This document shows, one piece after another, positions 7,609 to 53,600 of a stretch of 59,930 nt of DNA; within the stretch, counting starts at the first letter, position 1, and every line of letters starts with the position of its first letter. Source of the stretch: Acidobacteriota bacterium (lineage in GTDB: Bacteria > Acidobacteriota > Thermoanaerobaculia > UBA5066 > Gp7-AA6). Both the position numbers and the translations under genes were made by a program. A model generated the notes under the pieces. The model made no database searches. It had not been told where the DNA came from and saw only the letters and a program-made list of their open reading frames with translations. The DNA is taken from assembly GCA_027307335.1 (NCBI GenBank), contig DAHUXD010000019.1, positions 70,712 to 130,641 of the forward strand. Direction: 5' to 3'.

Positions 7609-7896
7609 TCAGACGCCGATGGCGAGGCGCCTCAGAAAGCTCATCAGCAGGTAGATGATTCCGAGCACGAAGAGCGGTGAAATGTCGATGCCGCCCATCC
7701 GCGACGGCGGGACGAGGCGGCGGAAAGGACGGAAGAGCGGCTCGGTCACTCCCCAGAGGAATCGGACGATCGGATTGCGCGGGTCGGGGTTCACCCACGA
7801 GATGAGCGCCGAGATGATCACGATCCACCAGAGCCCCTGGAGGACCCAGAGGATGACATCCAAAAACGCGCCCGCCGCGGAGCCGCCGACGTTCAC
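7609..7896 (-). CDS. yggT: YggT/YlmG family membrane protein
   Basis: The 95-residue integral membrane protein has two hydrophobic helices (LDVILWVLQGLWWIVIISAL and ISPLFVLGIIYLLMSFL). Between them is the YggT hallmark, an SWVNPDPRNPIVRFLWGVTEPLFRPFRRL-type loop. Family members affect osmotic tolerance, division-site organisation and nucleoid or thylakoid layout, but their biochemistry is unknown. The start is a GTG at 7896 whose GTGA overlaps the yggS stop, so the two genes are translationally coupled. An ATG start would require a much longer, unrelated N-terminus. Confidence 0.85.
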   Translation of the reverse strand: MNVGGSAAGAFLDVILWVLQGLWWIVIISALISWVNPDPRNPIVRFLWGVTEPLFRPFRRLVPPSRMGGIDISPLFVLGIIYLLMSFLRRLAIGV

Positions 7897-12026: not shown

Positions 12027-13807
12027 CCTTTCCTTTTGAGGTCGGCGATCCGCCGGCGGACGCGTTCCTTCCGTTGCACGAGATCCTGAATGTCCGACCC
12101 TTCGCTCTCGGCACGGCTGATCGCTTGCTGGAGCCCGGAGCTCTCACTCTCCAAATGATTTATTTCGAGGGCCTTGAGGAGCTGGTCGACGCCCTTCTCG
12201 GTCGGCTCGAGAGATTCGTCCAGCGCGATGCCAGAGAGGAACGTCCGCTCGTCATCCGTAAGGTGTGCGATTTGCCGTTGGAAATCAATAGTTTCCGAGG
12301 CCGAATCGGCCTCCCGCAGCGCCGCCACCACCTTCTTGACCCTCGGATCGGTCAGGAAATCGTCTTTCAAAGTGCTCAGAATCAGCGACTTATGGTCGCC
12401 GCCGCCGACCAGGAGGCGGACCAGACGTTTCTCGACCGCGGGCGCCTCCAGCGCCGATAACGCGGCCGAATTCCCCGGAGTTCCCACACTCTTAGAACGC
12501 GTAATTCCCGGGGAAAGGTTCGCCTTCTCGCCCTCCCAGAGGACCTCGAGCGGGACGGCGACGCCGCGGGCGAGCTTGCGGTACTCCTCGTAGCGGAGGA
12601 CCCGGTCCGGGATGGCGCCGAGGATCTCCTGGATCGACGCGATCCGCTCCCGTTTCTCGGCCGAGGAGAGCGTCGGATCTCCCGGGTTCCTGTCCTCGAG
12701 GAGCCACGACAGGTAGTCCGGCGCCTCGTCGATCCGGGCGGCGAGGGACTCGGGGCCTTCGCGCCCGAGGACGTCGTCGGGATCCTCGCCCTCCGGCAGC
12801 CTCGCGACGCGAGCCTGGAACCCCTGGGCGAGGAGCAGCTGCAGCGCGCCCCGCGTCGCGTTCTTCCCCGCCGAGTCGCCGTCGTAGCAGACGACCGCGT
12901 GGGGGCAGAGGCGGCGGAGCTTCTCGGCCTGCTCGGGGGTCAGGGCGGTCCCCATCGACGCGACGGTCTCCGCGATGCCCGCCCTCACGAGCGCCAGGTG
13001 GTCGAAGTAGCCCTCGACCAGCACGACGCGGTCCTTGCGGCGGATCGTCTCGCGCGCCTCGAACAGGCCGTAGAGGATCCGCTTCTTCGAGAACACCGGC
13101 GACTCGGGCGAGTTGAGGTACTTCGGCTCGCCCTGCGGCGAGAGCGTCCGCCCGCCGAAGCCGACGGGCCGACCGCGGTCGTCCTTGATCACGAAGAGGA
13201 GCCGGTCGCGGAACCGATCATAGGCGCCGGTGCCCTTCCCTTCCGCGCGGGGCTGGAGGAGGCCGGCCTCGACGAGGAGGTCCTCGGGATACGCGCCGCC
13301 GAGCGCCTGGCGCAGAGAATCCCAGGCGTCGGGCGCGTGGCCGAGGCCGAGCTTCTTCCAGAGCTCCGGCGGCACCCCGCGCTCCTGGAGGTACTTCGCG
13401 GCCGCGCTGCCCGGCCGCGTCAGGCGCTCCGCGTAGAAGCGGTGGGCGGCGGCGACGGCCTCGAGGATCCTGTCGCGGCGGTCCTCGCGCGGGCCGCGCC
13501 GCTCGCGTCGCGGAATGGTGACGCCGAACCGGCCCGCGAGCGCCTCGACCGCCTCGGGAAAGTCGAGCCGGTCGATCTCGCGGACGAACCGGATGACGTC
13601 GCCGCCGGCGCCGCACCCGAAGCAGTGGTAGAGGCCCTTGTCGCGGTCCACGGTGAACGACGGCGTGCGCTCGTTGTGGAACGGGCAGAGGCCCTTCCAG
13701 GAACGCCCGGCCTTCTTCAGCGTCGTGTGGTCGTTGATGACCGCGACGATGTCGGCGGCGCTGCGCAGTTCGGCGAGGACGCTGTCGTTGATGTCGAGAT
13801 CGGGCAT
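12023..13807 (-). CDS. dnaG: DNA primase
   Basis: DnaG makes RNA primers at the replication fork. The 594-residue protein has an N-terminal CHC2 zinc finger ([11 protein letters not shown] … [15 protein letters not shown], about 40-75). Next comes the primase core with KYLQERGV and GFGGRTL. The TOPRIM domain has [13 protein letters not shown] with the catalytic Glu and [16 protein letters not shown] with the metal-binding Asp pair. The C-terminal helicase-binding region (about 430-594) is divergent, as is usual. The gene overlaps rpoD by 4 bp (ATGA) and follows mutS2 after 39 bp. Confidence 0.96.
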
Positions 13808-26242: not shown

Positions 26243-26893
26243 ATGAAGTGGATCGTCCGGATCGGCATCGTCGCGCTGGCCGCGGTGCTCGCGTCCCACT
26301 GCGTCCTGGGACAGACGCCGGCGCCCGCGCGGACCGCGTCGACCAAGCCCGCCCTCGCGCCGGTCGCGAAGGCCGCGTTCGCCGGCGGCTGCTTCTGGTG
26401 CATGCAGGGGGAGTTCGAGGAGCTGCCCGGCGTGAAGTCCGTGATCGCGGGCTACACGGGCGGCACCACGCCGCATCCCACCTACGAGCAGGTCTCGTCC
26501 GGCGCGACGGGGCACTTCGAGTCGATCGAGATCACGTACGACCCGAGGAAGATCTCGTACGAGAAGATCCTCGACACCTACTGGCACAACGTCGACCCGT
26601 TCACGCCGTACGGCCAGTTCTGCGACAACGGCCCGCAGTACCGCACCGCGATCTTCGTGCACGACGACGCGCAGCGCGCCGCGGCGGAGGCCTCGAAGGA
26701 AAAGATCGAACAGACGGCGAAGAAGAAGGTGGTCACGCAGATCCTTCCGGCCTCGACGTTCTGGCCGGCGGAGGAGTACCACCAGGACTACGCGAAGAAG
26801 AATCCGTTCCGGTACGGGCTGTACCGGAAGGGCTGCGGCCGCGACGAGCTCCTGGAGCAGATCTGGGGGACGCCGCCGAAGGAGAAGCCATGA
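26243..26893 (+). CDS. msrA: Exported peptide methionine (S)-S-oxide reductase
   Basis: MsrA reduces the S-epimer of methionine sulfoxide. A signal peptide (about 1-23) implies periplasmic repair. The catalytic motif FAGGCFWC is at 48-53, with the nucleophile C50. It continues with [59 protein letters not shown] and AEEYHQDY. The C-terminal Cys in RKGCGRDE may resolve the disulfide. The stop overlaps the msrB start (ATGA), so both exported reductases are made together. Confidence 0.95.
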
Positions 26894-27429
26894 TCGCGAT
26901 CGTGCTCGCCGCGCTGATCGCCGGAGCGCCGGGCGCGCCGACGCCCGCGCCGGCGGCGAAGGCGTGGAACGCGTCGACGTTCGTCAAGCCGTCCGACGCC
27001 GAGCTGCAGAAGAGGCTGACACCGCTCCAGTACCAGGTGACGCAGCACTCCGGCACCGAGCCCGCGTTCTCGAACGCGATGGCGCACACGACGGCCGCCG
27101 GCATCTACGTCGACATCGTCTCGGGCGAGCCGCTCTTCTCCTCGCTCGAGAAGTACGACTCGGGCACCGGGTGGCCGAGCTTCTGGAAGCCGCTCGACAA
27201 CGTCAAGCAGGCGGACAAGGGGAGCGTCTTCTTCGGCATCGAGGTGCGCTCGGCGCACGCCGACTCCCACCTCGGCCACGTCTTCACCGACGGCCCGCCG
27301 CCGACGGGGCTGCGCTACTGCATCAACGCGGCCGCGCTGCGGTTCGTGCCGGTCGACCGTCTCGAGGTCGAGGGCTACGGCAAGTACCTCGTCCTCTTCG
27401 AGACGAAGAGCGCGGCGGCGAAGAAGTAG
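26890..27429 (+). CDS. msrB: Exported peptide methionine (R)-S-oxide reductase
   Basis: MsrB acts on the R-epimer. The 179-residue product carries a short N-terminal hydrophobic signal. Family motifs are [50 protein letters not shown] and [27 protein letters not shown]; the last holds the catalytic Cys (about 143). The two CxxC pairs that bind zinc in many MsrB proteins are absent, so this is the zinc-free form. It pairs with msrA for envelope oxidative-damage repair. Confidence 0.93.
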
Positions 27430-27506: not shown

Positions 27507-27581
27507 TCCTCAGTAGCTCAATGGCAGAGCATCCGGCTGTTAACCGGAGGGTTGTAGGTTCAAATCCTACCTGAGGAGCCA
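27507..27581 (+). tRNA. tRNA-Asn (GTT)
   Basis: The acceptor stem is TCCTCAG/CTGAGGA with discriminator G and encoded CCA. The D stem is GCTC/GAGC. The anticodon stem is TCCGG/CCGGA with loop CTGTTAA (anticodon GTT), and the T stem is GTAGG/CCTAC. All pair perfectly. The last 25 bp of the locus recur at 29953-29977, marking it as an integration target. Confidence 0.96.
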
Positions 27582-27583
27582 CT
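27559..27583. repeat. attL-like site at the tRNA-Asn 3' end
   Basis: This covers the T-loop to just past CCA. The 25 bp are identical to 29953-29977; with one mismatch the match extends 3 bp to the left. Integrase targets commonly use this part of tRNA genes, and integration regenerates an intact tRNA, as here. Confidence 0.75.
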
Positions 27584-27727
27584 GCTTCTTTTTTCCGCGA
27601 ACGACCATAGGCTGCGGGGAGCTCTGGTCCTCCAGCGTCATTTCGTTTTCGAAGTAGGAAAAGGTCGGTTCCGCGGGCAACTCTCAGAAAACGCCTCAGG
27701 AGACCCTGCCGTTGACTCAGCAGATCG

Positions 27728-29677
27728 TCACGGTAGAACGAAGGTGTTCACCAGGAACGCAGCGGCCTGCCCGCGATTGAGCGAGTCGTTCGGGCAGTAG
27801 AGAAGCGGGCTCGCCTGACACCCGCCGGTGATTCCTTCCGCGTAAAGCTCTTCGATCCAGTTCGCGAAAGTGCTCGGGCACGGCACGTCCACGAAGAGGC
27901 CCGAACAAACAGGCGGCACGTACCCGGAGCCATGCCTCGCCTTGAGAAGGAAGACGGCGACCTCAGCACGCGTCGCGGGGTCCGAGGGACAGAAGTTGTC
28001 GCCGCCGCAGCCGCCGGTAATTCCCTCGGCCGAAAATGCCTCGATCCAATCGGCGAACGGGGAGGGGCAGGGAACGTCGAGGAATTGGCCGGTGCAAGAC
28101 GGGGGAATGTAGGTCGGACCGTGTTCCGCTTTCAGCAGAAAGACGGCAATCTGGTCGCGGAGCAACGGGTAGTCGCGACAGTAGTAGCCCCCCGTACACC
28201 CGGCGGTGATCCCGTCGCGGAAGATCCGTTCGACAGCATCGTGAAACACGTCAGACTGGGGAACGTCGAGAAAGTCGGCGAAGAATCCTCCGGTCAAAGT
28301 CACCGAAGGTCCCGGAGAGCCCGGATTCGTAATCGTGACGTCGTTGAGGGTCCCTGGCCCGAGTGCGGGGCGAAAATTCCCGCTAATAATGTTCGGGTCC
28401 AGGACGGCGCCGAGGGGGACCGGCGCGCCGTCGGTCGTCACGCTCGCGCCGGGAACGAAGCCGCCACCCAGGATGTACACACTCGTAAAGTCCGCGTATG
28501 GCCCCGAGCTCGGAACAATAGAGTTGATCGCGAGGGTCGTCGAGGTCAGGCGGAACACGGCGTCTTGGCCGAAGAAGTTGGAGCTCAGAAGACCCCACAA
28601 GTCACCATCGGCCGTCTGGACCAGGCCCCCGGGATAGGCGACGTTGGCGTCGAAGAAATCGAAGAGTGTCGAGAGGTTTCCCGACGCATCGACGCGGAAG
28701 ATCTCCCCGAGTCCATTGGCTCCGCCGTTCGTCGTCCATCCGTAGAGATTGCCGTCGGCCGACTGCAGGACTCCCTTGTTACCCACGAAGGCGGGACCGA
28801 ACGGACGTTGAGTCGTGATATTCCCGGCCAGGTCCATCGAAAACACCGTTCCCCCCTCGGTCGGACCGCAAGCCAGGGTCGTGCCATGGAGATTGCCGTC
28901 GCTGGATTGGACGAGCGAGTCCGGAACGTTGCCATCCGTGTCGCAGTCGAAGGCGTGAACCGTCGTGTAGTTGCCGGAGGCATCCATCCGAAAGATCTCC
29001 CCGAAACCGCCGCCCGTCGAGTTCAACGCTCCGTAGAAGTTGTCGTCCAGGCCCTGAAGGAGATTGGTGACGGCGGTCTCAGGCCCGAGCGTGATCAGTG
29101 TCGTCAAGTTGTACTGAGCGTCGAGTCTGTAGATCGTTCCACCTCCGGATTGAGTGCAGTGGCAGTGAGGAAAGGGCGGAGGCGTACACGTGACCTGCGT
29201 GCAGTGAGTGGGTGTCACCCCATAGAAGTTGCCGTCGCTGGCCTGGATCAGGTCGGTGGTCGAGACTCCGGAGGGGTACTGATAAAGGAGCTGGACGTTT
29301 CCGGCGAGGTCCATGCGGAAGAAATTCGTCGGCTCGAGGTAAGGGGTCATCGTGCCGTAGAGGTTTCCGTCGAGGCCCTGAAGCAGCGTGTCGATGGAGC
29401 CCGGGTTTTGCCAGTGGAAGTCGTGGATGTTCTCGGCCGCGCAGGATGGGCTGATTCGAAAAACGGACCCCTCCACGGTCGGAAGGTAGAGGTTCCCGTC
29501 GGAGCCGACGAGAATGTTCCGGAAGCCGTCGAAAACGGTCGAAAAGCCGTCGACGAGCTGGAACTGCGATGGCTGCGCGCCACTCGGGACGGCGATGGCG
29601 AGGGCGGTCGCCATGAAAGCACTCAATCGCAAGGCGCTTCCGACAACGCACCTCGAGGAGACGAACCCGCTCATCAT
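27728..29677 (-). CDS. Secreted GloVer-repeat / TIG / SLH-like surface protein
   Basis: The 649-residue exported protein starts at ATG 29677, with AAGGTGAG in front. A signal peptide (about 1-35, ending PSGAQ) precedes seven Gloeo-Verruco (GloVer, choice-of-anchor) repeats of the type LLQGLDGNLYGT, SDGNFYGVT and QSADGNLYGWT (about 45-370), probably a beta-propeller. An IPT/TIG-like domain (SIVPSSGPYADFTSVYILGGGFVPG) and three SLH-like modules end the protein. Each module contains GITGGC…YC and TRAEVAVFLLKARHG-type stretches. It is the only gene in a tRNA-flanked segment and is clearly less GC-rich than its neighbours. A related SLH-like tail occurs in the protein at 50644-53895. Confidence 0.85.
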   Translation of the reverse strand: MMSGFVSSRCVVGSALRLSAFMATALAIAVPSGAQPSQFQLVDGFSTVFDGFRNILVGSDGNLYLPTVEGSVFRISPSCAAENIHDFHWQNPGSIDTLLQGLDGNLYGTMTPYLEPTNFFRMDLAGNVQLLYQYPSGVSTTDLIQASDGNFYGVTPTHCTQVTCTPPPFPHCHCTQSGGGTIYRLDAQYNLTTLITLGPETAVTNLLQGLDDNFYGALNSTGGGFGEIFRMDASGNYTTVHAFDCDTDGNVPDSLVQSSDGNLHGTTLACGPTEGGTVFSMDLAGNITTQRPFGPAFVGNKGVLQSADGNLYGWTTNGGANGLGEIFRVDASGNLSTLFDFFDANVAYPGGLVQTADGDLWGLLSSNFFGQDAVFRLTSTTLAINSIVPSSGPYADFTSVYILGGGFVPGASVTTDGAPVPLGAVLDPNIISGNFRPALGPGTLNDVTITNPGSPGPSVTLTGGFFADFLDVPQSDVFHDAVERIFRDGITAGCTGGYYCRDYPLLRDQIAVFLLKAEHGPTYIPPSCTGQFLDVPCPSPFADWIEAFSAEGITGGCGGDNFCPSDPATRAEVAVFLLKARHGSGYVPPVCSGLFVDVPCPSTFANWIEELYAEGITGGCQASPLLYCPNDSLNRGQAAAFLVNTFVLP

Positions 29678-29952
29678 CCACTCACCTTCTTGGGAGGTAC
29701 CGCAGATCGCATGCCCCCCCTTTCCCTTAAAGACGAAAACGACGGGAAGAACCGGACAGGCCGCCTTCAGTTGAAGAGTGGTTGAGAAGGGGAGAACGTG
29801 ACAGCGATGGTTGGCCCCCAAGCGGCCAGGTCGCGTACTTCCTCTCGCCCGGCTGGCTGAAGATCGACCCCACCTCAAGCACTCTCAGAAAAAAGGGCCG
29901 CCGACTCAGAAAGAACCGCCGAAATCCTCAGGTTTTCGGAGAAAGCGGAAGT

Positions 29953-29977
29953 TTCAAATCCTACCTGAGGAGCCACT
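29953..29977. repeat. attR-like duplicate of the tRNA-Asn 3' end
   Basis: The 25 bp are identical to the tRNA-Asn T-loop, acceptor strand and CCA at 27559-27583, and no tRNA body lies in front. The bracketed segment is 2394 bp long. The copy lies 51 bp before the first kinase gene. Confidence 0.75.
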
Positions 29978-30010: not shown

Positions 30011-30031
30011 TAGTCTTTCGGCAGTTCGATG
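30011..30031 (+). promoter_or_regulatory. Near-leaderless promoter motif of kinase 1
   Basis: A GGTGTAGTCT -10-like box (TAGTCT 30011-30016) lies 12 nt before the ATG, and GCAGTTCGATG follows. The same layout precedes kinase 2. No Shine-Dalgarno is visible, so translation is probably leaderless or nearly so. Confidence 0.5.
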
Positions 30032-32719
30032 ACACTCTCAGCCGGGACTCGTCTCGGCCCCTACGAGATCCTCGCGCCGCTCGGAGCGGGCGGAATGGGC
30101 GAGGTGTATCGGGCGAGCGACGCCAAGCTCAAGCGCGAGGTGGCGATCAAGGTTCTGCCAGAGTCCGTGGCGAGAGATCGCGAGCGGCTGGCGCGGTTCG
30201 AGCGCGAGGCGCAGGTGCTGGCCTCGCTCAACCATCCCAACATCGCGACCATTCACGGCGTCGAGGAATCGGGTGGCGCGTTGGCTCTGGTCATGGAGCT
30301 GGTCGAAGGGCCGACGCTCGAGGATCGGATTGCGGAGGGGCCGGTTCCTGTCGCGGAGGCTCTTCCGATCGCTCGCGAGATCGCGGAGGGGCTCGACTAC
30401 GCGCACGAGCGAGGAATCATCCATCGAGACCTGAAGCCCGCCAACGTCAAGCTGACCGGGGACGGGAAGGTCAAGATCCTCGACTTCGGCCTGGCGAAGG
30501 CGCTCGATCCTGTCTCGGGAGCCTCGTCGCCGGATGTGACGCGTTCGCCGACGATCACGGCGGCGGCAACTCAGGCAGGGGTGATCCTGGGGACGGCGGC
30601 GTACATGTCGCCGGAGCAGGCGCGTGGAAGGCCGGCCGACAAGCGCTCCGACATCTGGGCGTTTGGCTGCGTCCTGTGGGAGATGCTCACGGGCAAGCGC
30701 CTCTTCCACGGTGAAACGGTATCCGACACGCTGGCGGCGGTTCTCCGAGCGGACATCGACTGGGCAACCTTGCCTGCCGGAACGCCCCCGGCGATCCGGC
30801 GGCTGCTCGAACGCTGTCTCGAACGGGACCCGAAGCGGCGGCTGCGCGACGTCGGGGAAGCCCGCATCGCGATCGAAGAGGGTCCAGCGAGTCTCATCGC
30901 CGCCCACTCGGAGGTTGCCCCGGGACTGATTTCGAGGCGTGCCGGGCGGGGGCGGATGGTGGCGGCGGCGCTGGCGGGGGTGGCGGTCGGTGCCGGGCTC
31001 GTCGCGGGAGTCGCCGCGATGCGTCACGGGCGATCGGCGAGGGACTCCACGGTTCGGCTCAACGTCACCCTCCCGCGGGGGCAGGCGATGGTGGTGCAAG
31101 ACCTGCCGAACTTCGCGTTGTCGCGCGACGGAGCGGAGATGGCTTACGTCGCCAGGAAGGAGTCCGGGAAGAGCGCGCTCTACTTGCGGTCCCTAGGCTC
31201 TTTCGAGCCCAGGGAGCTCCCCGATACCGAAGGCGCGTTGGCGCCCTTCTTCTCTCCCGATGGTCAGTGGGTGGCATACCTCGTCGGAGGAAAGCTCCAG
31301 AAGATGGCCGTGTCGGGAGGGCCTGCCCAACCGGTTTGCGACTCGCCGGTTTCAGACCTCGGAGTCGGTGCGTGGGCCGACGACGGAAGCATCCTCGTTC
31401 CGTCGACGAACGGGAGTCTGACGCGCGCCGCCCCGTCGGGCGGAAAGTGCGTCGAGATCGTCAAGCCCGATGCATCGCGCGGCGGAATTCTGCAACCCGA
31501 ATCGCTTCCGGGCGGAGAGGGGATTCTCTTTGCGGGCGTGGGAGGTTTTCAAGCGAGCCAGGCCCACATCGCGGTGCTCGACCTCAAGACGGGCAAGTCG
31601 GAGGTGATCATTTCCCAGGGCACGAACCCCCGCTATGTGGAGCCCGGGTTCGTCGTGTTCGGCCGCTCCGGCGCCATCCTGGCCGCGCCGTTCGATCCGC
31701 ATGGCCTGAAACTGCTGGGCCAGCCTTTCCCGGTCGTCGAGGGAGTCATGCCCGACTCCGCGTCCGGAATGGAGCAGTTTGCCGTTTCGAGGAGCGGCGT
31801 GCTCGCCTACGTCGCCGGAGCGCGCACGGCCGTCAAGAGACGGATCGTGATGGCGGACCGGAAGGGCGTTTCCACGGTGGTCACCGCGGACGCGAATTCC
31901 TACGAAGATCTTTCTCTTTCGCCGGACGGGCGCGAGATCGCCATGACCGTCGAGGGCGCAACCTGGAACATCTGGGTCCACCAACTCGATCGCGGAACTC
32001 TGACGCGGCTGACGTTCGAAAACGACAACCGCGACCCACTCTGGACGCCCGACGGGAAGCGGGTCGTCTACACGTCGCTGCGAAACGGCCTGTGGGGCCT
32101 CTACTGGACGCCCGTAGACGGGAGCGGTCCGGAAGAGCTGCTGCTGGCTCGCAAGAACTGGCTATTCGCCACCTCGTGGTCTGCTGACGGCCGCTTTCTG
32201 GCTTTCGGCGAACAGGATCCGAAGACCGGGGTCGACATCTGGATTCTTCCCATGGGGGGAGACCGCAAGCCCTATCCCTTCGTGCGCTCCTCGTTTCGGG
32301 AATGGTTCGGAGAGTTCTCGCCAGACGGCCGCTGGATCGCCTACGAATCGAACGAATCCGGCCGGAGCGAGGTCTACCTGCGTCCCTTTCCGGGCCCCGG
32401 CGGCAAATGGCAGGTCTCGACGGAAGGGGGCGCCCGGCCGGAGTGGTCTCGAGACGGACGAGAGCTCTTCTATTTCGAAAACGACAGGATCATGCGCGTC
32501 ACGGTGGACGGCGGCCAGGCTCTCGCGGTCGGTCGGCCGGAGCTCCTGTTCCCGTGCAATTGCTTCGATTCCGGCCGCTACTACGAGGTGACTCCGGACG
32601 CCAAACACTTCCTGCTCATCCAGAACGCGCAGCCGGTCAGCCCCGTCGCCGAGCTCAACGTCGTGCTCGGCTGGGGACGCGAGCTCGAACGGCGGATGCA
32701 CGAGAAGCCGGCCCAGTGA
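30029..32719 (+). CDS. PknB-type Ser/Thr kinase with TolB-like propeller, paralogue 1
   Basis: The 896-residue membrane kinase has an N-terminal Hanks-type domain (about 12-275). The glycine loop is [12 protein letters not shown], the ATP lysine K41, the catalytic loop [12 protein letters not shown] (D134), and the activation segment DFGLAK, then [14 protein letters not shown] single membrane helix follows (about 310-331). The extracytoplasmic part is a WD40/TolB (PD40) propeller with repeats such as [37 protein letters not shown] and [12 protein letters not shown]. This architecture is expanded in Acidobacteria. The signal and substrates are unknown. It is adjacent to paralogue 2 in the same orientation, and both share a 5' motif. 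Confidence 0.93.
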
Positions 32720-32889
32720 CGCTGCCGCCGCTAGTCGCCTGAGACTTCAGAATCGTCGCCCTGATCGGTAGTCCAGCCTCGAGCCGGGGGGCGAAGGCTT
32801 CCAATCTCCCGTAGCCAGCCCCCGAAAAGGTTCCAACTGAGAACTATGTGGGGAGCCGCTACCCCCCCCGAACAATTACTCTCGTAACC

Positions 32890-32919
32890 ACGGTGTAGAG
32901 TTTTCTGCCAAGTTCGATG
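32890..32919 (+). promoter_or_regulatory. Near-leaderless promoter motif of kinase 2
   Basis: CGGTGTAGAGT (TAGAGT box at 32896-32901), then TTTCTGCCAAGTTCGATG, is strongly similar to the 5' region of kinase 1. It has no Shine-Dalgarno. The rest of 32720-32916 shows nothing else recognisable. Confidence 0.5.
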
Positions 32920-35499
32920 GCTCTTTCCGCGGGTACCCGCCTCGGCCCCTACGAAATCCTGTCGCCGCTCGGCGCCGGGGGGATGGGCGAGGTCTATCGG
33001 GCGCGCGATACGCGCCTCGGCCGCGAGGTCGCGATCAAGGTGCTGCCGGCTGAGCTCGCCGAGAACCAGGAACGGCTGAGGCGCTTCGAGAAGGAGGCCC
33101 GCTCGGCCTCGGCGCTCAACCACCACAACATCGTCACGGTCTTCGACATCGGGGCGACGGACGGCGTCCCCTGGATCGCGATGGAACGCGTCGAAGGGGA
33201 GACGCTGCGCGGGCTCCTCGCCGCTGGAGCGCTGCCGCTGAAGAAGCTTCTCGGAATCGGGTCCCAGATCGCGGACGGTCTCTCCCGAGCCCACGCCACC
33301 GGGATCGTCCACCGCGACCTGAAGCCCGAGAACGTGATGGTCACGCGTGACGGGATCGTCAAGATCCTCGACTTCGGCCTCGCCAAGCTGACCTCTCCGG
33401 CGGCCGAGAGCGGCGAGCTGACCGAGTCGCCCACCGTATCGGCCGCGACGGAGGCCGGCGTCGTGCTCGGCACCGTCGGCTACATGTCGCCCGAGCAGGC
33501 GCTCGGTGGAGCGCTCGACTTCCGCTCGGACCAGTTCTCTCTCGGCGCGATCCTCTACGAGATGGCTGCCGGCAGTCGAGCCTTTGCGCGGCCGAGCGCT
33601 CCGGAGACCATGACCGCGATCATTCGCGAGGAGCCCGAGCCGCTCTCCTCCGCGGCGCCCGCAGCCCCTCTGGCGCTTCGCTGGATCGTGGAACGGTGCC
33701 TCGCCAAGGATCCGGAGGAGCGCTACGCCTCGACGAAGGATCTCGCCCGCGATCTGTTGCGGCTCAGGGACGGCCTCTCCGAGGCGAGCCTGTCGGGTGC
33801 CGCGGCTGCCGCCGTCGCCGCCCCGGTTCCGCGCCGGAGCCTCCGCAGCGTCGTCGCCCTGGTGGCGGCGGTGGCCCTCGTCTTGGGCGCGATCGCCGGC
33901 GTCGTCGCGACACGAAAGCCCCCGCCGGGACCGCCGGTCTACCGCCCCCTGACTTTCCGCCGCGGGTATCTCTTCAACGCCCGCTTCGCGCCCGACGGAA
34001 GAACCGTCCTCTACTCGGCGGCCTGGGGACAGGGGAGTCAGGCGGTGCGGATGTATTCGACTCGTCTCGACAGCACGGAATCCACCGCGCTCCCGCTCCC
34101 GAACGACTCCGGCATCCTCTCGATCTCGGGCTCCGGCAAGCTCGCGCTTCTGCTCGACGGAGATCCCTACGTGATCGCCGAGGCGTCGCTGGCGGGCGGG
34201 GCGCCGCGTCAGCTCGTCGAGGCCCGGCATCCGGACGAAGTCGCTGCGGACTGGGAGCCGGGCGGAGATCGTCTCGCCGTCGTTCGCGAGGGCCGGCTCG
34301 AGTTTCCGGTCGGAAAGGTCCTCGTGCCGGCGTCGGCCGAAGGCCGGGTCCACGCCCTCCGATTTTCGCCCGACGGTCGGCGGATCGCGTTCCTCGAGAG
34401 GCGGGGACATTTCGTCGATGCCGTGGGTGTCGTGGATTTGACCGGCAAGAAGACGATCCTCTCGGAGGGATGGAACACCGGGATGTCCCTCGCGTGGCAC
34501 CCGACGACGGGCGAGATCTGGTTTTCGGCCCGGGAGGGCGGCGGCAGTCTGGGGGTCATCGAGCTCTACGCCGTCTCTCTGTCCGGTGTACGGCGCACGG
34601 TGGCCCAGACCCCGCAGCTGCTGATCGTGAGGGACATCGCCCGCGACGGGCGAGTGCTCGTGCAAAGCGACGACTGGCCGATGACGATGATGTGCCTGCC
34701 GCCGGGAGCGTCGCGCGAGGTCGATGTGACCTGGCTCGATTTTTCGGACGGCCAGGCGCTCTCTGACGATGGGCAGGATCTTCTCTTCACCGAGGGGGGT
34801 GCCGGCGCCGGAGCGAAGGGCGCAACCTACATGCGCAAGACCGACGGGTCCGCGCCTGCCGTGCGGCTCGGGGACGGCGAGATGGCCCGGGACCTCTCTC
34901 CCGACAAGAAGTGGGCCTTGCAGGTCTGGCCGGACCGGCTCGTTCTGCTTCCGGTGGGACCGGGCGAGTCGAAGACGATCCAGGACAAGAGCCTCGACTA
35001 CAAAAACGCGAGGTGGTTTCCGGATGGGAGAAGGCTGATCATCGAGGCGGCAGCCCCGGGGCGCCCGTCTCGGGTGTACGTGCGCGACCTGGATGGCGGC
35101 CCGCCCCGGCCAGTCACACCCGAAGGAACCGCGGGAGGGCGAATTTCCCCCGACGGCAAGCTCGTCGCCGCCCTGGAGACGAAAAGCGGCCAATGGGCTC
35201 TCTACCCGATCGACGGCGGCGAGCCCCGTCCCATCCCGGGCATACAGGCGGGCGAATACGTCATCCGCTTCGATGCGAGCGGGACGAGCCTGTTCCTGGC
35301 TTCGGGGAGCCTGCCTCTTCGCATCGACCGGCTCGACCTCGCGTCCGGCAAGCGCTTCGCCTGGAAGCAGATCGTGCTGGCCGATCAGACAGGCGCGGAT
35401 TCGATCGGCAGCGTCCAACTCACGCCCGACGGCAGGTGCTACTGCTACAGCTTCATGCGCAGCCTCTCCCGGCTCTACGTCGTCGACGGGTTGCGCTGA
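32917..35499 (+). CDS. PknB-type Ser/Thr kinase with TolB-like propeller, paralogue 2
   Basis: This 860-residue kinase has the same layout as its upstream neighbour. The N-terminal kinase has [46 protein letters not shown] and DFGLAKLTS, then [14 protein letters not shown] and [16 protein letters not shown] transmembrane helix (about 308-330, [20 protein letters not shown]) leads to an extracytoplasmic PD40 propeller ([37 protein letters not shown]). The kinase halves of the pair are close, whereas the propellers differ clearly, so the two probably sense different signals. It ends about 170 bp before the DGPF gene. Confidence 0.93.
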
Positions 35500-50643: not shown

Positions 50644-53600
50644 CTAGGGACCGTACAACAGCAGCGAGAACGTCTTCGTCAGGAACACGGCCATCTGCTG
50701 GCGCGTGTTCGGGTTGGCGGGGCAGTAGAGTAGCGGGCTCGCGCTGCAGCCGGCGGTGATCTGCCGGTTGTAGAGGTCCTCGATCCACGGCGCGAACGGG
50801 TTCGACACGGGCACGTCGCCGAAGATGCCCGTGGCCGGCGGCGGGACGTAGCCGGAGCCGTTCAGCGACTTCAGGAGAAACGCCGACATCTGCTGCCGTG
50901 TGACCGAGTTGTCGGGACAGTAGAGCAGCGGCGACGCGCTGCAGCCTCCCGTGACGCCCTCGGCGTACAGCTCCTCGATCCAGTCGGCGAAGAGGCTCGG
51001 GCAGGCGACGTCGCCGAAGACGCCGGTGCAGGGCGGCGGCACGAACGACTTACCGTGTTTGGACTTCAGCAGGAAGACCGACATCTGCGCGCGCGTCACC
51101 GAATTCGTCGGGCAGTAAACGCCGACGCCGCAGCCGCCGGTGATCCCGTTGTGGAAGATGTCCTCGATGAACGGGTAGAAGCCGCTCGACGACGAGACGT
51201 CGGAGAAGGACAGCCCCGCGTGGACCGTCCAGCGCTTCGCCCATTTGTGGTGCGGATCCGAGGTCGAGAGGGTCTCGTCGAAGGTGGTGTCCCAGTGCTG
51301 CGACGGGCGCGGAATGTTCTGGAACTGGAACTGGAAGCAGTCCCCGGTCGCGGTGAGGCAGTCGGAGCTCGCGAGCGACGCGACGCTTCCGTAGCTCGCG
51401 TCGGGATCCGGATTGGCCGTGTCGAGTCCGTTCGAATCCGACAAAGCGGAGCTGTGGCCCGTGAGGAAAGTGGCGACGAGGCCGTCGTTCTCCCACGTCG
51501 GCGCCGCGACGAACGCTTCGCCGGGATCGGCGACAGCGTTGCCCGACGGGTCGGCCGAAAGCGCCGTCGGCGCGAGCTCCGAGGGCAGACTCCCGCGGCA
51601 GATCACGCGCTCGGCGGCGTCGGTCGGACTGGGGCCGGGGCCGTCGAAAGACCGGTTGACCGTCGTGTTCGAGGTCTCGTCCACGCTGGTGCTCGTCAAA
51701 GCGCTGACCGTCAGGCCGGGATCCGCGACGGCAGCCGGAATCGAGACCTCCTCGTCGAGGCAGCCGACGAAGTCTCCGCCGGGCCCGACCCGGACCACGA
51801 GCGCGCGATCGTTCGATTGGACCGTGTCGGCGCCGGCCGCGATCAGACCGCCGTCGAAGGTCGGCTGGACCGCATCGAAGGAGGCGGCGCTCGACGGCAG
51901 GGCGGCGAAGGCGCGCGCCCACTGGGGTGCGCCGTTGAAGTCGAGTTGGAGCAGCGTGGCCCGCTGGAGGCCGCCGCTGACGCCGAACCCGGCGACGCCG
52001 ATTCCCTGAAGCATCGGCGCGATGGCGGTGGCGTATTGGGGACCTCCGGAAATCCCCTCCTGCCACGACACGTTGCCCAGGGAGTCCAGCTCGACCACAG
52101 TGGCCCCTGCCGGTCCGCTGCCCGCGGCGAGCGTCCCTCCGAAGAGGTTGGCCAGGCCGAAGAGGAGCTCGTTGCCGCTCGTCCCGAGTCCCTGGTCCCA
52201 CGAGATGGTCTGGCCGTCGTAGCTGAGCTTCAGAAGGCGGAAATCCGAGTCGTTCGGGCCCCGCACGAGATCGCCTCCGACGACGAGACCGTCCCCCGTG
52301 TCGGCGAGGGTGATCGCCGTGGACGCACCGGCGTCGGCGGGGTACTGGCGCAGCCAGGCCAGCGTCCCATCCGCGTTGATGCTTCCGACCGCGAAGGTTC
52401 CGGAGGAGCCGGCGACGGTACCGGCAAACGCGTAGCCGCCCGACGCCGGGATGAGGGCGTGGACCGAGTTGCCGCAGTTTCCCGCGTCGCACGTGAGGAA
52501 GGTGTTCGACCAGATGCCGTTTCCGTCGGCATCGACCTTCAGAATCCACATCGGATTTCCCGGCGTCGCGTACGAGCCGGCCATCACCAGGCCGCCGAGA
52601 TACGGGTCTTTCACGATGGCGGCGGCGTAGAAACCCGTCGCGGGGAGGAAATCGTTGACGTAGAGAGCCTGAGACGTGACCTCGCCCGAATCATCCAGCC
52701 GGAGGAGCCAGAAGCTCGCTCCGCTGGTCGGGAACCCGAGGGTCGTCGCCAGGACCGCGTACCCGCCATCCGGCGTCCTGATGACGCAGTGCGCCCTTTC
52801 GCCGGTTCCCTGTCCGCTCCCCAGGAGATCCGCCCAGCTGTTCACTGGAGGCGCCTGCGCCGCACTCGTCGCGACGACGAACGCGCCGTCGGCCGCCTTC
52901 GTCGAGAAGTAGAGGACGCGGCGCGAACCGACGAGCGTGACCTCCGGGTGCGAGAAGTCGAACTGGTTCGGCGCGCCGTCCACGCGCACCGCGTCGCCGT
53001 TCGAGAAGAGGCCGGCGGGCGCCGACCACGTCTGGCCGCCGTCGCCCGACTGCGCGTAGTAGATCTGCTTGTTCACGCGCGAGCCGTCGGGGTGGCGCAG
53101 CGCATAGTAAACGCCGAGCGTGCCGTCGCCCTGGTCGAGGACGCGCGCGACGTTGTGGACGTACACGCCCAGTGGGTCGCCCGGGTGCGTCAGGAAGTAG
53201 ACGTAGCCGGTGCCGGTGATGAGGTCCTGATACGTGTCGGCCGGCGGCGTGACGCTCGGCGGCGTCGCGTCGACGTACTCCCACTTCGACAGCCCGCCGA
53301 TCCGGTCGTCCGCCACGTAGAGCTTGCCGTTCACGATCCCGTACGGCCCGGTGGTCTGGCCGTACGTGCCGAGCCCGTTGGTCGGGTAGACGGGGCCCTG
53401 GTGAGTCACCGAGAGCGTCGACGGATCGACGCCGATGTCGTTGACGCTCTCGTTGTAGTTGTAGTCGCCGTACTGTCCGGGAACGGCGGCGTTCTCGGTC
53501 CAGATCAGGAGCTTCCAGTCGCTTCCTATCTTCGCCGCGCGCGGGAACTCGAACTGCGGCTCGGTCGCCGCGCCGTAGATCGGGAAGGGACTGCCGCCCG

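Follow-up and report, generated by a model that had tools for sequence, protein, structure and literature searches.

Cis-mobilizable elements (CIMEs), as defined in PMC5704250, derive from an ICE or IME through the loss of modules and can be mobilised by an element that has accreted to them. They have mostly been described in Firmicutes, beside functional elements. In Dehalococcoides, 15 ssrA islands without an integration module have been proposed to be CIMEs (PMC3146451); one RNA gene and a serine recombinase serve the tandem array there. A 2.6-kb remnant with a truncated integrase is found at a tRNA site in Pseudomonas (PMC2647930), and fragments of tRNA genes that integration leaves behind are expected to be widespread (PMC9897764). 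Autonomous islands and prophages with tyrosine integrases use tRNA genes as sites, have the direct repeat at both ends and carry the integrase beside the tRNA gene. The Tycheposon is a tRNA-associated element which encodes a tyrosine recombinase. At E. coli tyrT the 3' end of the tRNA gene is repeated without a tRNA body in units of less than 200 bp, and the downstream DNA is repeated with it.

The window (the whole stretch of Acidobacteriota DNA that was analysed, 59,930 nucleotides) contains, directly downstream of a tRNA-Asn gene, a segment which probably was inserted site-specifically and persists as a CIME-like remnant that retains attL and attR (Table 1). As in a CIME, both att sites are derived from the target, here the 3' end of a tRNA gene, and genes for integration and transfer are absent; unlike a CIME, it has a single cargo gene, and no related ICE or IME ancestor or helper was identified. 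With the Dehalococcoides islands it shares the repeat of an RNA-gene 3' end, the absence of an integrase and a core that begins in the T-loop. This genome differs from Dehalococcoides in that many tRNA genes carry one segment each, and only the tRNA-fMet copies are array-like. Site use and the direct repeat at both ends are as in autonomous tyrosine-integrase islands, but the segment has no integrase of its own, and identification as a Tycheposon was rejected because it has no recombinase. It adds to the known but little-studied remnants or hitchhikers of mobile DNA. What is unusual is how many integrase-less segments a single genome contains, and that different tRNA genes have cargo in common. 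Since island finders mostly begin from an integrase, such segments of 2-17 kb are easily missed; they offer a testable case for the share of Acidobacteriota gene turnover which proceeds via non-autonomous elements at tRNA sites.

Table 1. Features of the tRNA-Asn segment (positions in the window) and of tRNA 3'-end copies elsewhere in the genome
Feature	Position	Strand	Basis or remarks
Left flank outside the segment: msrA, msrB	26243..27429	+	ORFs, Pfam
tRNA-Asn(GTT), intact, putative integration target	27507..27581	+	ARAGORN, Rfam
attL-side core: T-loop through CCA of tRNA 3' end, then CT	27559..27583	+	Repeat and genome search
Putative inserted segment	27584..29952		GC 0.612, lowest-GC 2.37 kb in window; excised circle would be 2394 bp
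Three CTCAG motifs, left inner end (27683, 27695, 27716)	27680..27720	+	Possible arm-type sites, weak
Sole intact gene: 649-aa secreted GloVer beta-propeller, TIG-like, three SLH-like repeats	27728..29677	-	ORF, Pfam, TIGR03803
Relic: C-terminus of Ser/Thr kinase-TPR gene (ERDSDGW...YFLSPGWLKIDPTSSTLRKKGR)	29794..29901	+	blastx E 1.7e-4
Three CTCAG motifs, right inner end (29884, 29905, 29927)	29881..29931	+	Possible arm-type sites, weak
attR-side core: 25-bp exact copy without tRNA body	29953..29977	+	Repeat and genome search
Right flank outside the segment: Ser/Thr kinase-PD40 gene	30029..32719	+	ORFs, Pfam; start 52 bp past attR
Three tandem tRNA-fMet 3' halves, contig C53 (L302)	379-402, 7617-7640, 12982-13005	-	
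Pro(CGG)			Score 48; 2.9 kb; no integrase; kinase
Thr(CGT)			Score 42; 7.9 kb; no integrase; oxidoreductase-SDR-TetR-permease-nucleotidyltransferase
Arg(CCG)			Score 34; 7.5 kb; no integrase; SOUL/CFA synthases/amine oxidase/MerR-B12
SeC			Score 23; 6.3 kb; tRNA called by ARAGORN; no integrase; cupin/channel/sulfatase/DUF1254
Gln(CTG)			Score 17, weak repeat; 2.3 kb; no integrase; acyltransferase
Pro(TGG)			T-arm+CCA pattern; 17.0 kb; no integrase; kinases and large surface protein
Ala(GGC)			Score 29; 145 bp
Glu(CTC)			Score 17; 107 bp
Val(GAC)			Score 17; neighbouring tRNA gene
Pro(GGG)			15.8-kb prophage remnant; integrase-bearing
Gly(CCC)			T-arm+CCA pattern; 70 kb; integrase-bearing

The tRNA-Asn gene and the copy of its 3' end

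The exact repeat of 25 bp described in the initial annotation was confirmed. It consists of the final 23 bases of tRNA-Asn, whose CCA is encoded, and the next 2 bases, where identity ends. Both copies are on the same strand at a spacing of 2394 bp, and a slightly longer repeat (27556-27583 versus 29950-29977) is identical at 27 of 28 nt, the 25 on the 3' side being exact. That the distal copy has no tRNA body, as stated in the initial annotation, was confirmed by ARAGORN and Rfam, neither of which called a tRNA there. Allowing up to three mismatches, the 25-mer was found at these two places only in the whole draft genome (4,368,427 bases, 65 contigs), and the reversed 25-mer, used as a control, gave no genome matches at the same threshold. 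In a same-strand search for tRNA 3' ends the distal copy scored 25. Controls on the opposite strand and with reversed queries did not exceed 14; those with swapped loci did not exceed 17, with the exception of one pair of neighbouring tRNA loci. A chance repeat, or an artefact in the assembly of this metagenome-assembled genome, is hardly credible: the genome is a draft in 65 pieces, but an exact 25-bp repeat stands against controls at 14-17, and like arrangements recur independently at other tRNA genes, as well as in another genome.

The GC content of the segment (61.2%) is the minimum among all 2.37-kb windows of the 60 kb (mean 0.700, sd 0.029). The earlier estimate of 70-80% for the surroundings was too high, the immediate flanks having 66-70%.

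Most likely, a reaction of the tyrosine-integrase type inserted the element site-specifically at the T-loop and 3' end of tRNA-Asn. The incoming DNA would have restored the tRNA gene, the old 3' end being displaced 2.39 kb downstream, and the integrase would have been lost or never carried, so that the cargo gene and the end of a relic kinase remain. We infer the integration step and the class of enzyme, as well as any residual mobility of the segment. In IMG/VR contigs the 3' ends of tRNA-Asn genes serve as provirus att sites, and in one of these (L225) the provirus core begins at the same T-loop base as the core described here.

Such a repeat could also arise if part of the tRNA region were duplicated in tandem by slippage or unequal exchange, for which no integrase is needed. 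Duplications of tRNA 3' ends of 80-250 bp do occur, at Ala and Glu in this genome and at others in two related genomes (G002 and G013, below). Duplication of this kind should, however, have extended into the DNA past the tRNA as well, as at tyrT, whereas identity at tRNA-Asn stops 2 nt past its end; furthermore, the segment is 2.4 kb long, low in GC and without a second copy elsewhere, and the DNA to the right of attR is unlike that to the right of the tRNA. This origin is considered very unlikely.

To the right of attR, positions 30029-35499 hold a tandem pair of Ser/Thr kinase genes, of a type which is very numerous in these genomes. Kinase genes start shortly 3' of a tRNA 3' end at the Asn attR, at Pro(CGG) and at one fMet copy on contig C53. 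A degenerate tRNA-Asn-like 3' fragment lies 30 bp past tRNA-Asp on contig C6 of this genome (G000; L079, 5572-5614), with flanks resembling the attR and kinase start region of the window. A second, very divergent tRNA-Asn(GTT) on contig C51 (L109, 1044-1119) is possibly carried by a mobile element.

Gene content and inner ends of the segment

The content of one gene, given in the initial annotation, was correct for intact genes; a relic of 36 codons between this gene and attR had been missed. No transfer genes were found in the segment among its ORFs or by Pfam search, the sole intact ORF encoding the surface protein. The reported lack of an integrase was borne out, since neither the ORFs nor a Pfam search gave a PF00589 match in the segment. 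Six PF00589 tyrosine recombinases are encoded in the genome, none of them near it. The initial annotation had also proposed a search for a tyrosine integrase with tRNA-Asn as its attachment site, and none specific for this tRNA was found in this genome. Nor was an integrase-carrying relative of the element found, and inside, apart from the intact gene, there was only the kinase-gene relic. In blastx this relic matched best the kinase encoded in the segment at tRNA-Pro(CGG) (E 1.7e-4). Its presence beside attR shows that the interior of the segment has decayed.

The intact gene is convergent with tRNA-Asn, and its product has a signal-peptide-like N-terminus. Its description as a GloVer/TIG/SLH-like protein held: five GloVer repeats were recognised by TIGR03803 (E 4e-49), and three SLH repeats were weak, one of them above the Pfam cut-off. 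AlphaFold2 modelled the protein with modest confidence (pLDDT 62) as a beta-propeller, then a beta-domain and three helix pairs; virginiamycin B lyase (2qc5) was matched by the modelled propeller at E 3e-12. The gene looks functional, and its product is presumably located at the cell surface, with an anchor of SLH type. Its C-terminal half has about 30 paralogues in this genome; the same search detected none in two genomes of the same family, and among 148 genomes of the class none has an orthologue of the gene. Because the SLH domain clusters with paralogues of its own genome, the gene need not itself be foreign. A phage origin was rejected, a pattern search of IMG/VR having given no relative. 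A second SLH-family paralogue in the window begins at 50662 on the minus strand (1086 codons, stop to stop). At tRNA-Ser(GCT) a paralogue lies directly downstream, yet no att copy was present within 14 kb.

The CTCAG motifs at the inner ends are possible arm-type sites, which is suggestive only. The right inner end also contains a 12-mer (ACTCTCAGAAAA) common to the left one, and its CTCAG motifs overlap the kinase relic. Any 5-mer present three times at both ends was obtained in 11 of 2000 GC-matched pairs of windows.

Segments at other tRNA genes of the genome

Same-strand copies of the 3' end were sought over as much as 14 kb downstream of nearly every tRNA gene (45 by Rfam), and the genome was additionally scanned with a T-arm+CCA pattern; the sequence read comprised the stretches around tRNA genes, recombinases and paralogues. 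All tRNA 3'-end duplications found in the scan were on the same strand and downstream (Table 1). Absence of an integrase at Asn, Pro(CGG), Gln, SeC, Thr, Arg, Pro(TGG) and on contig C53 is based on the Pfam integrase search, while several of the cargo names rest on reading of translations rather than on profile search. Integrases accompany only the Pro(GGG) and Gly(CCC) segments in this genome, and integrase-less tRNA segments (2-17 kb) outnumber integrase-bearing tRNA islands in the draft. The proposal that the layout at tRNA-Asn is integrase-generated is supported by the like layout at the other tRNA genes and by the two integrase-bearing islands.

Each of the three tRNA-fMet 3' halves on contig C53 is preceded by a conserved end sequence (TTTTCGCTTCCTGTAGACGAtTGGCTCGTCCTC). 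These copies flank cassettes of 5.4 and 7.2 kb, with a kinase, an SLH paralogue and other cargo, and neither an integrase nor a tRNA-fMet body was found on the contig. The arrangement looks like an accretion array of successive site-specific insertions.

No single end motif for all integrase-less segments was found beyond chance. GACTC was slightly enriched at segment ends (13 versus 5.5 expected, P 0.005, post hoc). One helper integrase for all segments is thus not supported, as a common end motif is lacking. The integrase of the Pro(GGG) prophage was judged by inspection to be an unlikely helper for the Asn segment, since its core (TTCGAATCCCGGCATCCCGACC) has little in common with that at tRNA-Asn.

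The Gly(CCC) island of about 70 kb (G000:C57:23599-93702; L153, L110, L150, L304, L305) extends from the tRNA to the place where its 3' end recurs, and a gene for a tyrosine integrase adjoins the tRNA. Two SLH paralogues are inside, one of which is the closest relative (66%) of the C-terminus of the surface gene product in the window.

Related genomes and shared cargo

Among named records the same tRNA-Asn was found only in QHVV01000004.1 (G001, Acidobacteria gp7 MAG) and JAIVJS010000021.1 (G002), both of the same family. The comparison with empty sites that had been suggested was in part informative. Neither genome has a distal copy of the tRNA-Asn 3' end, which is compatible with a variable insertion site. 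Neither offers a clean empty site in which the two flanks are joined, the downstream genes of the two being related neither to one another nor to the window, and the ancestral junction cannot be reconstructed because the right flanks are not syntenic. Synteny via the right-flank kinase was uninformative, with more than 50 candidate kinases per genome.

In G002 (40 tRNAs) a single segment, found at Gly(CCC) and 1.4 kb long, exceeds 1 kb; the tRNA-Met locus of this genome is complex. G013, from another family of the same order (40 tRNAs), has a 3.0-kb segment without an integrase at tRNA-Met, besides two segments in which an integrase adjoins the tRNA. An oxidoreductase-SDR-TetR module is colinear between the tRNA-Thr segment of the present genome (L098, 1366-9250) and the tRNA-Met segment of G013 (L194), with identities of 76% over 1523 bp and 66% over 492 bp. 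The SDR gene was found at high identity (78%) in only these two of 148 genomes of the class, the third match having 51%, and both high-identity copies adjoin a tRNA gene. The module at tRNA-Thr and tRNA-Met indicates that the same cargo was placed behind two tRNA genes where an integrase is now absent. From these sequence comparisons the segments appear to have moved rather than to have been made in place, and the best evidence for this is the Thr/Met pair of sister segments, not the Asn segment.

Of the two origins named in the initial annotation, a deletion remnant or a mini-element mobilised in trans, the second is conceivable, though the less probable reading. The Asn segment would then be a single-gene cassette that never carried an integrase and still moves by means of one from another source, such as a phage, an ICE or a lost helper. 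The identical 25-bp att cores, from which excision would regenerate an intact tRNA-Asn, and the CTCAG repeats at both inner ends are consistent with this, as are the many integrase-less cassettes, the tandem fMet array with its conserved right ends, and the occurrence of one cargo at two tRNA genes in two families without an integrase. Against it, the internal kinase relic implies decay, no integrase of the genome is known to use tRNA-Asn, and the segments have no end motif in common. The more probable reading is that the Asn segment belongs to a larger set of integrase-less cassettes at tRNA genes in this lineage, either as a decayed member or as one with cargo only. Such a cassette would be mobile only with an integrase that recognises its att sites, supplied in trans or via an accreted neighbouring element.

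A broader proposal, which we regard as doubtful, is that this lineage uses its tRNA genes as a distributed cassette system in which integrases acting in trans exchange integrase-less cargo between tRNA genes. If so, surface-protein, kinase and stress genes would be swapped in an integron-like manner with tRNA 3' ends as sites. The TetR-SDR-oxidoreductase module at Thr and Met would be a trace of such a system, and so would the fMet array, whose right ends are conserved.

The short tandem duplications (80-250 bp) that involve a tRNA 3' end were located at L086 (Ala), L117 (Glu), L216, L175 (G002), L186, L190, L192 and L214 (G013). Several of these tiny duplications extend at least 20 bp beyond the end of the tRNA and recall the tyrT repeats of E. 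coli.
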